DNA from: Pseudobacter ginsenosidimutans
GTDB lineage: Bacteria > Bacteroidota > Bacteroidia > Chitinophagales > Chitinophagaceae
DNA: 64,000 nt
Reading direction: 5' to 3'
NCBI RefSeq assembly: GCF_007970185.1
Contig: NZ_CP042431.1
Span: 1,426,001 to 1,490,000, forward strand
Of the stretch, positions 43,379-46,845 are shown piece after piece. Within the stretch, counting starts at the first letter, position 1. Each line of letters begins with the position of its first letter. The notes beneath the pieces are model-generated. The model made no database searches and was not told the DNA's origin. It saw only the letters and a program-made list of their open reading frames with translations. The position numbers and the translations under genes are program-made.

Positions 43379-43849
43379 TTACGATGTATATACCTGAACA
43401 TTACGACTAAAGGATTCTTCCAGCGAAATAAAGGTCTCGGTTCTTTCAATCCCTTTGATTTTCTGCAATTCATCGTGTAATACGGCACGGAGCTGATTGA
43501 TATCTTTGCAGATGATCTCGGCAAACATGCTGTAGTTGCCGGTGGTATAATTCAGGCGAATGATCTCGGGTATCTTTTGCAGTTCCCTTGCTACGGAATC
43601 ATACAGTGAGCTCTTTTCCAGGTAAATGCCGATGAAGGCGATCACATCGTAGCCGAGCTGCTTCATGTCCACATTCAATTTGGTACCTTTTACGATACCT
43701 GCTTCCTGCAGTTTTTTGATCCGCACGTGGATGGTGCCGCCCGATACAAATAATTTCTTACCCAGATCAGCATACGAAACCTCTGCATTATCGATCATTT
43801 CATGGATGATCTGAAGGTCCAGTTTGTCAAGATTCAATTTAGCAGCCAT
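43379..43849 (-). CDS. Lrp/AsnC family transcriptional regulator
   Basis: 156 residues. N-terminal helix-turn-helix (LDLQIIHEMIDNAEVSYADLGKKLFVSGGTIHVRIKKLQEAGIV) and C-terminal RAM domain (GYDVIAFIGIYLEKSSLYDSVARELQKIPEI, TTGNYSMFAEIIC). It senses amino acids or related effectors as an octameric ring. It is divergent from the candidate tRNA-like RNA, with about 150 AT-rich bases between. Confidence 0.92.
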   Translation of the reverse strand: MAAKLNLDKLDLQIIHEMIDNAEVSYADLGKKLFVSGGTIHVRIKKLQEAGIVKGTKLNVDMKQLGYDVIAFIGIYLEKSSLYDSVARELQKIPEIIRLNYTTGNYSMFAEIICKDINQLRAVLHDELQKIKGIERTETFISLEESFSRNVQVYTS

Positions 43850-44000
43850 TTTACAATCGTAATTTTATAAATTTCAAAGCAACCCTGCAAATATTTGTAT
43901 AATCTCGAAACTTTCCAAATTTGTATTGAATAATTTTCAAGTAATTGCCTATTTTCTTTAATATTGCACTGTAATTAGCTCTTAACAAAACAACAGATAC

Positions 44001-44168
44001 TGTGGAGTGATGGAATTTTGGCAGACATGCCCTCTTGTCTCGGGGTGGGGGTCACAGGATAAACGTAGTGTAATGCCGGACTGGTTCACGCTGGTTCGAC
44101 TGGGGTTGACCACCGCAGGTTGCGCTATTGCTAACTGCCCCGTGGAGGTTCGAGTCCTCCCTCTACAG
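44001..44168 (+). ncRNA. Candidate tRNA-like RNA with giant variable arm
   Basis: Acceptor TGTGGAG (44001-44007) pairs with CTCTACA (44161-44167), including one G-T wobble. The D-arm ATG/CAT (44010-44012, 44026-44028) encloses a loop with the AA and GG positions of tRNA-Leu. The T-arm is perfect: GGAGG, TTCGAGT, CCTCC (44144-44160). The anticodon-like arm at 44030-44046 pairs four of five bases; read as a normal loop it would give GTC followed by T, where a purine is expected. Between it and the T-arm lie about 97 bases closed by GGGG (44047-44050) with CCCC (44138-44141), far longer than the 10-25 bases of Leu/Ser tRNAs. The insert holds near-repeats of CTGGTTC ten bases apart and no protein. 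A 13-bp terminator begins three bases later. It could be a real structured RNA or a decayed tRNA with an insertion. Confidence 0.5.
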
Positions 44169-44170
44169 CA

Positions 44171-44202
44171 AAAACCCTTCCGGATAACCGGAAGGGTTTT
44201 TT
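44171..44202. terminator. Bidirectional terminator after the tRNA-like RNA
   Basis: AAAACCCTTCCGG pairs perfectly with CCGGAAGGGTTTT around ATAA, with T-runs in both directions. It ends the RNA on the plus strand and the MutS-like operon, which stops at 44224, on the minus strand. Confidence 0.92.
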
Positions 44203-44223
44203 ATTGGAGGCAATTGAACAGGT

Positions 44224-45537
44224 TTATGCTTGTATCATTTCAAGGATACCCTCATTACGGATGATCATCATTCCCTGACGATCTTCAGTAATCCCTTCAG
44301 CCAGCCTGTAAGTATATTTCGGCACGGAGCCTTCCAAAATAGTGGGCATGTATACGAACCTGATATTCTCTTTTCCTTTTAAAGACTCCCCTACTTCAAT
44401 GATATGGGTAGACACCACGAAAAGACATTTCCTGTATTCAGCAAATGCTTCTGTAACTGATAAAGTGCCATCGAATGCATCCTTCACATTCGTTCCTTTA
44501 AATAGTTCGTCAAACATGAGCAAGAGTCGTTTACCACTGGCCGCCGCTTCAGCCGCCTGCTTTACCCTTACCACTTCCGCATAGAAATGACTGTATCCAA
44601 GATGGATATTATCTGCCACATTGATACTGGTGTATAACCCTTCTCTAACGGAGAAACGCATACTATCTGCTGCCACGGGAAATCCCATCTGAGCCAGGTA
44701 AAGCCCGATCGCAACTGCTTTCATCAGCGTCGACTTTCCGGCCATATTGGCGCCAGTCAGAAAAAGCACATTGCTATCTTCCTGCATCCTGAGCTGATTA
44801 CCCACTGCTTTATCGATACAGGGATGTCGAAGCCCGGTAGCTTCCAGCAGATTGCTTTCCGCAGGCAACGCCTCAGCATAAGTGAAACCTTTAGCCCGCG
44901 ACACATCGCTCACAGCAATGTAAACATCCACTTCATAAATGAAATCCAGAACGTTTTCCATATCGGAAGCGAAACTGCTTTTGAGCAGGTGATCATACCG
45001 GGCAAGTGTTTGCAATGGCAGTTCTTTATAGATATCGATATTACGCAGTTTGGTGAGCGCGTGTTCAGACAGTATCCTGTGAACCTCTTGCATACGATTG
45101 GCAAAAGGCCCCGCTGTTCTCTGTGCTTCAACAAATGCGAAACATTTGTTGAGCGTAACAATGGTGGCCTGCATACCCTGCACGATCTTTTTAAAACGCT
45201 CATCACGGGTTAGCCCTGCCAGGGCTTTCTTTATGAAAACGCCCGCCAGTACCGTAATACCAGATTTGCCCGAGCCGGCATCCAGATACTCCCGCATACT
45301 GTTCACCTGCTGCACATCGAAAGGAAACCTGAGGGCAGCCTCCTGGAAATACCGGAAGATGCTGCTACGCATATTGATCTCCGTTACACTGGTGAGCGGA
45401 TCGCGGAACATACCGTCGAGCAACTGCTCCCCTCCTCTTGTTTTCACCTGGTTGAACAGATGGTACACGGATCCCTGCCGGAATTTTCCCAGCAGGTTCA
45501 ACTCATCCAGTGTTTGCCTGTCTATACTGAAACTCAT
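44224..45537 (-). CDS. Short MutS-like ATPase, copy B
   Basis: 437 residues. It has only the lever/core helices (residues about 10-240) and the ABC-type ATPase of MutS: Walker A TGANMAGKST, the FSVREGLYTSINVADNI block, Walker B LLLMFDELFKGTN and the STHIIE switch. The mismatch-recognition and connector domains of MutS and the C-terminal Smr nuclease of MutS2 are absent. Such short MutS-related proteins in Bacteroidota have no known role. It is the last gene of a four-gene leftward operon and a paralogue of the gene 18 bases upstream. Confidence 0.85.
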   Translation of the reverse strand: MSFSIDRQTLDELNLLGKFRQGSVYHLFNQVKTRGGEQLLDGMFRDPLTSVTEINMRSSIFRYFQEAALRFPFDVQQVNSMREYLDAGSGKSGITVLAGVFIKKALAGLTRDERFKKIVQGMQATIVTLNKCFAFVEAQRTAGPFANRMQEVHRILSEHALTKLRNIDIYKELPLQTLARYDHLLKSSFASDMENVLDFIYEVDVYIAVSDVSRAKGFTYAEALPAESNLLEATGLRHPCIDKAVGNQLRMQEDSNVLFLTGANMAGKSTLMKAVAIGLYLAQMGFPVAADSMRFSVREGLYTSINVADNIHLGYSHFYAEVVRVKQAAEAAASGKRLLLMFDELFKGTNVKDAFDGTLSVTEAFAEYRKCLFVVSTHIIEVGESLKGKENIRFVYMPTILEGSVPKYTYRLAEGITEDRQGMMIIRNEGILEMIQA

Positions 45538-45555: not shown

Positions 45556-46845
45556 TTATTTCTTTCCATTCTGTAAAATATCCAGGATGCCTTCATTCCG
45601 GATGATGATCATCCCGTGCCTGTCTTCCGTGATGCCCCGCTCCAGCTTGTAAGTGTACTCAGGCGTATGTCCATTCATACGGGTGGGCAGAAAGAGGAAG
45701 CCTGCATTGGATTGTTGACGCAGATCTTCACCGGCTTCCACGATATGGGAAGAAATGATGAAAAGGCTGCTGGTTCTGCTGGCAAAAGACTGTGTAACGG
45801 CTACCGTGGCTTCATGAGCATCTTTCACATTGGTACCCCGGAACAGTTCATCAAATACGATGAAGAGTGATTTACCGGATTTCAATTCAGCTGCCACCTT
45901 TCTTACACGCAGTACTTCTGCGTAAAAATGACTGGCGCCGATCCCAAGATTATCCGGCAAATTGATGGTGGTATAAATGCCATCCATAACCGAAAACTCC
46001 ATGAAAGCGGCCGCTACCGGAAACCCCATATGCGCCAGGAATACTGCAGTGCTGAGCGAACGCAGGAAAGTGGACTTCCCGGCCATATTGGCGCCGGTCA
46101 AAAAGATCACACTCTGTGAAGCGTCCATCGTTACATCGTTGGTGATGGGATTTTGAACAGCCGGGTGATATACGCCTTTAATATGAATGCGTGCTGTCCC
46201 TTTTTCCAGTGCGATGGGAAAAATGAACTTCCTGGTATTGGCCACTTTGGCAATTGAGAGATACACGTCCAGGCTGTAAAGATAGCTCAGGAGTTTTTCG
46301 AGCCTGGCGGATTCACGAATGCGCAGGAGCTGGTCAAATGCCGCTACTGCGGAGTAAGGCAATTTCCCTTTCAGATTTTCCCGCATCACTGGTCCGAAAG
46401 CCGGATCGCAGAGCAGGTCTGCGATCAACTTTCGTTCATGGCTATACGCTTCGATCTTAACTACAGATGGGGATTCAATGAAGGAATGCATCAACTGCAT
46501 CAGTTCGATCACGGCAGTAACGCCGTTCTGCACATCTTTTTCACTCAGTTGCCCCTGTTCGCCCTTCCCCGGCTGATGACCGGAGTGGGCGAGATACTTC
46601 TCTGCCATGTCGAACAGGGAAGCATTGAAAGGGAAAGCAAGATCAAGCTGCGCGAACGCACGGATTACGCTGCTTCTGGTATTGATACCCTCACGATCAG
46701 ATAAGGGATGACGGAACATTTCCTGCAGGTGATTTTCGCCACCACGGGTATGGGTATGATTATAGATATCGTAGATGCCTGCTACATCGCGTTTGCTGAA
46801 GATCCGCAGGTCATCGATGGTCTGTTCGTCTGTATGTAATTTCAT
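45556..46845 (-). CDS. Short MutS-like ATPase, copy A
   Basis: 429 residues, same architecture as its downstream neighbour: helical core, Walker A TGANMAGKST, FSVMDGIYTTINLPDNLG, Walker B LFIVFDELFRGTN, and the closing ITEDRHGMIIIRNEGILDILQ against ITEDRQGMMIIRNEGILEMIQ in copy B. Core regions have diverged far more than the ATPase, as expected if the two proteins form a heterodimer with asymmetric contacts. It starts 11 bases after the GldFG stop, so transcription and translation are probably coupled to the transporter. Confidence 0.85.
   Translation of the reverse strand: MKLHTDEQTIDDLRIFSKRDVAGIYDIYNHTHTRGGENHLQEMFRHPLSDREGINTRSSVIRAFAQLDLAFPFNASLFDMAEKYLAHSGHQPGKGEQGQLSEKDVQNGVTAVIELMQLMHSFIESPSVVKIEAYSHERKLIADLLCDPAFGPVMRENLKGKLPYSAVAAFDQLLRIRESARLEKLLSYLYSLDVYLSIAKVANTRKFIFPIALEKGTARIHIKGVYHPAVQNPITNDVTMDASQSVIFLTGANMAGKSTFLRSLSTAVFLAHMGFPVAAAFMEFSVMDGIYTTINLPDNLGIGASHFYAEVLRVRKVAAELKSGKSLFIVFDELFRGTNVKDAHEATVAVTQSFASRTSSLFIISSHIVEAGEDLRQQSNAGFLFLPTRMNGHTPEYTYKLERGITEDRHGMIIIRNEGILDILQNGKK

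Follow-up and report, generated by a model that had tools for sequence, protein, structure and literature searches.

A tRNA-like RNA family of Bacteroidota with an aspartate-type anticodon loop and an asparagine-type first pair: a candidate carrier for asparagine formation

Background

In the open-licence PMC literature searched, tRNA-dependent amino-acid synthesis is known only on translating tRNAs. The excerpt of PMC4206432 used here counts 68 genera (67 in its Table 2) that possess AsnRS, GlnRS and GatCAB, and presents the amidotransferase beside both synthetases as a puzzle. Eighteen of these genera, Bacteroidetes included, lack an asparagine synthetase according to the same excerpt. In Bdellovibrio, a non-discriminating AspRS acts on tRNA-Asn (PMC4206432, excerpt).

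The identity set of bacterial tRNA-Asp comprises G73, G10, G34, U35, C36 and C38 (PMC9976931, excerpt). Aspartyl-tRNA-Asn owes its amidation to the pair U1-A72, and in tRNA-Asp the reaction is prevented by G1-C72 and U20a; G1-C72 is given as strictly conserved in bacterial tRNA-Asp (PMC9976931, excerpt). For trimeric amidotransferases, a small D-loop counts as a determinant (PMC4027206, excerpt). The regulator AsnC of E. coli activates asnA, and asparagine abolishes the activation (PMC4482635, excerpt).

The RNA gene and its surroundings

The window, the whole stretch of 64,000 nucleotides of Pseudobacter ginsenosidimutans DNA that was analysed, holds a gene for a tRNA-like RNA of 168 nt, delimited by the sequence and by a covariance match. 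The features of the locus are:

43379-43849, minus strand: AsnC-type regulator gene (Lrp/AsnC), divergent from the RNA gene; Pfam AsnC_trans_reg, 61.9 bits
43926-43940: 15-bp dyad TTGAA-N5-TTCAA, candidate AsnC operator, here an exact match
43959-43966, plus strand: TAATATTG, candidate promoter element, from the sequence
43977-43987, plus strand: AGCTCTTAACA, leader element, from the sequence; similar GTTCTT/GCTCTT leaders in many relatives
44001-44168, plus strand: tRNA-like RNA, positions 1 to 73; covariance match of 110.5 bits, E 4.5e-30, to a model built from sequences that include the window's own copy
44001-44007, plus strand: acceptor 5' strand, U1 G2 onward, 7 bp with 44161-44167
44010-44028, plus strand: tRNA-Leu-like D-arm; ATG/CAT stem, G at 18 and 19, A20a
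44030-44046, plus strand: anticodon-like arm; loop TTGTCTC (44035-44041) giving G34 U35 C36 U37 C38
44047-44141, plus strand: variable arm; helices with changes on both sides
44047-44050 with 44138-44141, plus strand: variable-arm stem GGGG/CCCC, then bulge GTCA
44055-44057 with 44135-44137, plus strand: variable-arm helix CAG/CTG, covarying
44058-44063 opposite 44130-44134, plus strand: variable-arm internal loop, GATAAA opposite GCTAA
44064-44129, plus strand: variable-arm inner domain
44065-44128, plus strand: inner Chitinophagaceae domain; closing 8-bp helix 44065-44072 with 44121-44128
44144-44160, plus strand: T-arm GGAGG-TTCGAGT-CCTCC; all pairs formed in 29/29 sequences
44168-44169, plus strand: discriminator G73 (203/203) and encoded C74 (116/116)
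44170-44206, plus strand: hairpin with T-run, likely intrinsic terminator, plain in the sequence

A preliminary description made from the letters alone had named a 7-bp acceptor, a Leu-type D-arm, a T-arm with the loop TTCGAGT, C44000 opposite G44168, and standard tRNA spacing of these elements; sequence and covariance match bear out all of them. The terminator that it placed directly downstream is likewise present, although the terminator scan returned 0, this hairpin included. The window's copy has GGGGT at 44042-44046 where the closest relatives have GGGGGT, and four clear anticodon-stem pairs are left. Upstream, we take TAATATTG to resemble the Bacteroidetes -7 element (consensus TAnnTTTG), and AGCTCTTAACA is presumably boxA-like.

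ARAGORN called no tRNA in the window or at 30 related loci. Rfam 15 gave 0 matches in the window at gathering thresholds, the tRNA family included; at E<=5, the region 43900-44300 yielded only nine weak matches to other families and none to tRNA. The Rfam comparison proposed earlier thus assigned the RNA to no known class. The host genome encodes 48 ordinary tRNAs covering all 20 amino acids, among them five tRNA-Leu and four tRNA-Asp; its tRNA-Asn carries U1-A72.

Two apparent marks of the RNA ends were dropped. C74 is encoded in 47 of the 48 ordinary host tRNA genes as well (the full CCA in 8) and is no special mark. An 8-bp acceptor of the SelC kind was set aside: position -1 opposite G73 is C or U in 108/116 and A in 8, and because G73 never changes, the -1/73 pair shows no covariation. 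Position -4 is A in 103/116; this would agree with processing at +1 should RNase P favour A-4, as it may.

Two minus-strand genes lie downstream of the RNA. The product of 44224-45537 has a MutS domain V, with matches to mismatch-repair MutS and to KamC only below cut-offs; 45556-46845 looks similar to it by eye. Elsewhere in the host genome (L113; G000 C1:80450-82750), a tRNA gene cluster contains an atypical tRNA-Asp(GTC) ending in CCGA and other odd copies. This cluster may lie on a mobile element.

A conserved RNA family

An alignment of 29 core sequences, with the inner variable arm trimmed, was used for covariation. Standard pairs fill 97.4% of pair cells and 14 of 30 pairs show changes on both sides, among them 4 of the 7 acceptor pairs; structures slid along the same sequences pair in 48-60% of cells, and none of 500 shuffles reached any of five covariation measures. 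The comparison with relatives suggested in the preliminary description therefore found the stems conserved with compensatory changes, and it is virtually certain that the RNA represents a real, selected family.

A covariance model (R1, E<=1e-14) matched 68 of 395 Bacteroidia genomes in 19 family codes. In a sample of the phylum, 31 of 296 genomes matched, with G671 and G679 (three copies each) lying outside Bacteroidia. A DNA search at E<=0.01 matched 34 of 59 relatives, a figure that counts in some short tRNA-like and terminator matches. An exact-pattern search of genome contigs gave at least 120 stretches; taxonomy was taken from 80 of those listed. The stretches used belong, among the matches listed, to Chitinophagaceae, Saprospiraceae and relatives, Cytophagales (Dyadobacter, Cyclobacterium, Algoriphagus, Fulvivirga and others), and MAGs titled Flavobacteriales; cultured genera among them are Chitinophaga, Dyadobacter, Cyclobacterium and Algoriphagus. 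Tandem copies are common. Plasmid records gave no match, and phage records only matches of the T-arm/acceptor half to tRNA-Asn genes of eight mycobacteriophage records; carriage on mobile elements is thus unsupported.

RNA status (RNA+ or RNA-) rests on this one model, which scores real copies and variants low, and part of the RNA- assignments may be mistaken. A real copy in G023 reaches 50 bits as a partial match, and the copy of G283 scored 64.6 bits in the class-wide search and 116 when its own locus was searched. Scores of 64-68 bits were also obtained for G174 and G214. Weaker matches, mostly of 80-90 nt, were counted as probable ordinary tRNA-Leu on account of their length and score. One of them, in G115 (L274, minus strand, about 1577-1500), turned out to be a 76-nt variant of the RNA with the same acceptor and T-arm, the loop CTATCTC and no long variable arm.

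The variable region measures 38-131 nt, with a median of 80, among the 203 distinct members on which all base counts rest. The preliminary description had left two ways of closing it. The GGGG/CCCC stem, and not the alternative pairing that would compete with the anticodon stem, is supported: all four pairs form in 29/29 sequences, and for two of them both partners vary, in 10 and in 6 of the 29. Beyond the bulge, a covarying 3-bp helix is paired in 97.7% of cells (29 sequences). It leads to an asymmetric loop, GAUAAA opposite GCUAA, presumably akin to the UAA/GAN motif and topped by a lineage-specific domain. In 12 Chitinophagaceae sequences, 6 of the 8 helix pairs of this domain show changes on both sides, and the domain holds a conserved GGGTTGACCAC segment. 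L107-L109 lack parts of the variable-arm architecture. The D-loop is large and sometimes contains a hairpin; L025, L039, L099, L102 and L105 have insertions resembling small hairpins there and are otherwise normal.

As to origin, the preliminary description had offered a stable transcript whose tRNA ends serve some other function, or a tRNA that took up a short insert. The former fits the evidence from sequence comparison. The latter is contradicted: the long variable region occurs in many families together with the internal-loop motif and the odd anticodon loop, which misfits a short insert. A decayed copy of an ordinary tRNA, named there as the outcome that would undo the proposal, would agree with the likeness of the D-arm to tRNA-Leu(GAG) of the same genome; covariation and the spread over 68/395 genomes contradict it. 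Decay, invasion and chance resemblance taken together retain a practically negligible probability.

Identity bases

G34, U35, C36, C38 and G73 occur jointly in 199 of the 203 members (singly in 200, 203, 203, 202 and 203). The first pair is U1-A72 in 202/203, with A72 in all; G2-C71, the D-arm GG and A20a (not U20a) are invariant (203/203). Pair 10-25 is A-U in 152/203, and G occupies position 10 in 18; the second D-stem pair is U-A in 27 of 29 sequences and otherwise C-G. Compared with the identity lists of PMC9976931 (excerpt), the RNA joins the anticodon loop and discriminator of tRNA-Asp to a first pair of the asparagine type. A TIGR00459 match of 686.5 bits assigns the host AspRS to the bacterial type. 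Very probably, judging from these bases, AspRS would be a ligand of the RNA.

The anticodon loop has 7 nt in 203/203. The T that the preliminary description had noticed after the putative GTC is a hallmark of the family, with U37 in 190/203. A tRNA that decodes GAU/GAC and has an enlarged variable arm would account for GUC at the anticodon place in 200/203. Position 33, however, is U in only 162/203 (C in 22 and G in 19 of the 41 others), position 37 is a purine in 5/203 and lacks one in 198, and tRNA-Asp(GTC) is already encoded by four genes of the host, of which one is atypical. Since U33 is not maintained and purine 37 is so rare, efficient decoding is unlikely, and a decoding tRNA is a highly improbable description of the family.

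The AsnC-type neighbour

Gene 43379-43849 has NCBIfam AsnC (PRK11179) as its best model, at 164 bits against a cut-off of 227, and E. coli AsnC (2cg4) as its best solved structure (E 8e-34). Clustering of 945 ORFs at 177 RNA loci, some of them related to one another, placed the AsnC-type family beside the RNA in 122 and the next family in 22. By tblastn, an AsnC-type homologue is divergent from the RNA in 120/177 loci with a gap of 121-265 bp, and is not found so in 57/177. Of 116 distinct intergenic regions, 43 contain the dyad TTGAA-N5-TTCAA when one mismatch is allowed, where shuffles predict 5.1; the regions counted are also those that had suggested the pattern.

In E. coli, asnC and asnA form a divergent pair. 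In two RNA- genomes of one genus, G156 and G428, a 52%-identical AsnC gene diverges from a true asnB (940.9 and 948.7 bits; gaps of 154 and 175 bp, respectively). These are the only 2 of 18 asnB loci with AsnC within the fetched flanks. Among 22 asnA loci, AsnC was found beside 0, and an arrangement of the E. coli style was dropped for this sample. The AsnC linkage points to asparagine supply.

GatB and asparagine synthetases

Fifty-seven genomes were picked by RNA status before the GatB result: 36 RNA+ and 21 RNA-, with family f74 contributing nine of the RNA- genomes. GatB, which served as the marker of GatCAB, occurs in 36/36 RNA+ and 3/21 RNA- genomes (Fisher p 4e-12, relatedness ignored). 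AsnRS is present in 57/57 and GlnRS exceeds its cut-off in 46. Among genomes with both synthetases, GatB accompanies the RNA in 27/27 and occurs in 1/19 RNA- genomes, the exception being G440; the other two RNA- genomes with GatB, G115 and G077, have no GlnRS. RNA and GatB are jointly missing in sister genomes of families f1 (G035, G308), f60 (G097, G199, G310) and f22 (G173). At the thresholds used, G440 gave matches for GatB, GlnRS and AsnRS and none for the RNA, AsnA or TIGR01536; a divergent RNA copy may have escaped the model there, and the congener G344 has the RNA. There is a good probability that GatCAB is the partner of the RNA. In G117 and G153, the AsnRS match falls into two separated pieces inside a single open frame, as an insertion would cause.

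GatCAB could instead act on Asp-tRNA-Asn made by a non-discriminating AspRS, the RNA assisting or being co-regulated. Such an AspRS has been shown in Bdellovibrio and proposed for some Bacteroidetes (PMC4206432, excerpt), and the host tRNA-Asn has U1-A72. The RNA itself, however, bears the combined aspartate and GatCAB marks, and GatB is absent from 18/19 RNA- genomes with GlnRS. This explanation is accordingly rated as quite improbable.

True AsnB (NF006949, E<=1e-120; 49 of 50 over the model cut-off) turned up in none of the 68 RNA+ genomes and in 50 of the 327 RNA- genomes (p 7e-5), and AsnA (E<=1e-40) in 3/68 and 19/327. One or the other is present in 3/68 RNA+ and 58/327 RNA- genomes (p 0.005); 269 of the 327 RNA- genomes lack both. 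The three RNA+ genomes with AsnA are G242, whose RNA has the loop CTCTCTC, G364, with a degenerate variable arm, and G396, with normal RNAs; the loop CTCTCTC also occurs in G424, which has no AsnA.

A TIGR01536 protein is present in 32/36 RNA+ genomes, in 31 over the cut-off. B. subtilis is positive for TIGR01536 and negative for NF006949. The three RNA+ genomes scanned (G000, G269, G434) have TIGR01536 proteins below the AsnB cut-off, and the statement that RNA+ genomes possess an asparagine synthetase was not adopted from the count of 32/36; the proteins may nevertheless be real asparagine synthetases. Neither AsnA nor TIGR01536 was found, at the thresholds used, in the RNA+ genomes G354, G026, G059 and G344 and in the RNA- genomes G035 and G440.

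Proposed function

Conserved structure and bases, linkage to AsnC, and association with GatB and with the lack of a true AsnB are observed. From these we infer processing, charging, amidation, asparagine release, exclusion from the ribosome, AsnC control and the role of the variable arm. The RNA would be transcribed under the AsnC-type regulator and its ends processed as in tRNA. AspRS would recognise G34 U35 C36 C38 and G73 and load aspartate; GatCAB, guided by U1-A72, would amidate the bound aspartate to asparagine, which would then be set free or passed to another acceptor. An adaptor that bears first aspartate and then asparagine would be kept out of translation by its altered anticodon loop and its large, structured variable arm.

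We give a probability of about 0.6 to a dedicated tRNA-like carrier that AspRS loads with aspartate and GatCAB converts to the asparagine form. Asparagine supply as the purpose of the RNA is, on the same comparative grounds, favoured to a like degree. A slight preference goes to the fuller statement that the RNA is a mostly non-decoding cofactor of asparagine biosynthesis, whose variable arm blocks translation or senses asparagine, and which occupies a regulatory slot filled elsewhere by an asparagine synthetase gene. Several observations run counter to the carrier reading: G10 is mostly lost, G1-C72 is replaced and the D-loop is large; TIGR01536 proteins occur in 32/36 RNA+ genomes, AsnA and RNA coexist in 3, and G440 has GatB without the RNA; 269/327 RNA- genomes also lack AsnA and NF006949 AsnB; AsnC is absent beside the RNA in 57/177 loci and lies beside 2 of 18 asnB and 0 of 22 asnA loci; and RNA status depends on a single model.

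The same identity bases and GatB evidence fit an RNA charged with aspartate, or with asparagine after GatCAB, that passes the amino acid to an acceptor outside the ribosome, for example a lipid, a peptide or a cell-wall precursor, and most RNA+ genomes may keep another synthetase. Against such a donor, the AsnC linkage points to asparagine supply, and no acceptor enzyme recurs among the genes adjacent to the RNA in 177 loci; we consider it unlikely. A regulator, charged or not, might act as a decoy or sensor that binds AspRS and, at a level set by AsnC, tunes AspRS or asparagine metabolism. It would draw on the AspRS identity bases, the AsnC linkage and the elaborate variable arm. The near-perfect link to GatB is not predicted by a regulatory role alone, and neither are the kept U1-A72 and C74, which makes a pure regulator rather improbable.

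A dedicated carrier for asparagine formation, if true, would give RNA a new part in central metabolism. It could also account for the retention of GatCAB in many Bacteroidota despite GlnRS and AsnRS. The family is large, has no Rfam 15 match in the window, and was found without a published description in the open-licence PMC literature searched. Its presence in cultured genera makes the proposal directly testable.

Comparison with known systems

The nearest process is tRNA-dependent asparagine synthesis in Deinococcus, Thermus and Bdellovibrio, in which GatCAB is kept beside AsnRS and GlnRS (PMC4206432, excerpt), as GatB is here. Shared are U1-A72 as the GatCAB mark and the conversion of aspartate to asparagine on an RNA, as proposed here. 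The known cases use a translating tRNA-Asn and a non-discriminating AspRS (PMC4206432, excerpt), whereas the RNA has the Asp-type C36 and C38 and a large variable arm and is no normal decoding tRNA.

With tRNA-Asp, the RNA shares G34 U35 C36 C38 G73 and G2-C71. It differs in U1-A72 instead of G1-C72, the mostly missing G10, the lack of purine 37, an unfixed U33, a class II variable arm and a D-arm of tRNA-Leu type. Common to the RNA and tRNA-Asn are U1-A72, G34 U35 and G73; the RNA has C36 instead of U36, no purine 37 and a long variable arm. The D-arm and the class II layout are those of tRNA-Leu (GAG and others), from which the RNA is set apart by G73 instead of A73 (203/203), the GUC-type loop and the variable region of 38-131 nt.

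Allo-tRNA and selC-like tRNA also have a long variable arm and G73, and the anticodon is often GUC in the 8/4 group (PMC7609411, excerpt). The RNA has a 7-bp acceptor and a 5-bp T stem instead of 8/4 or 9/3, and its variable arm includes a structured internal loop. In contrast to tRNA-Ser and allo-tRNA, it has A72 and not C72; the C11-G24 of tRNA-Ser is replaced by a second D-stem pair that is mostly U-A. Like tmRNA, it places tRNA-like ends on a longer stable RNA; unlike tmRNA, it has a complete anticodon arm, and neither ARAGORN nor Rfam made a call. The asnC-asnA pair of E. coli provides the parallel of an AsnC-type gene next to an asparagine-forming function (PMC4482635, excerpt). In the locus described here, an RNA gene stands in the place of the synthetase gene.
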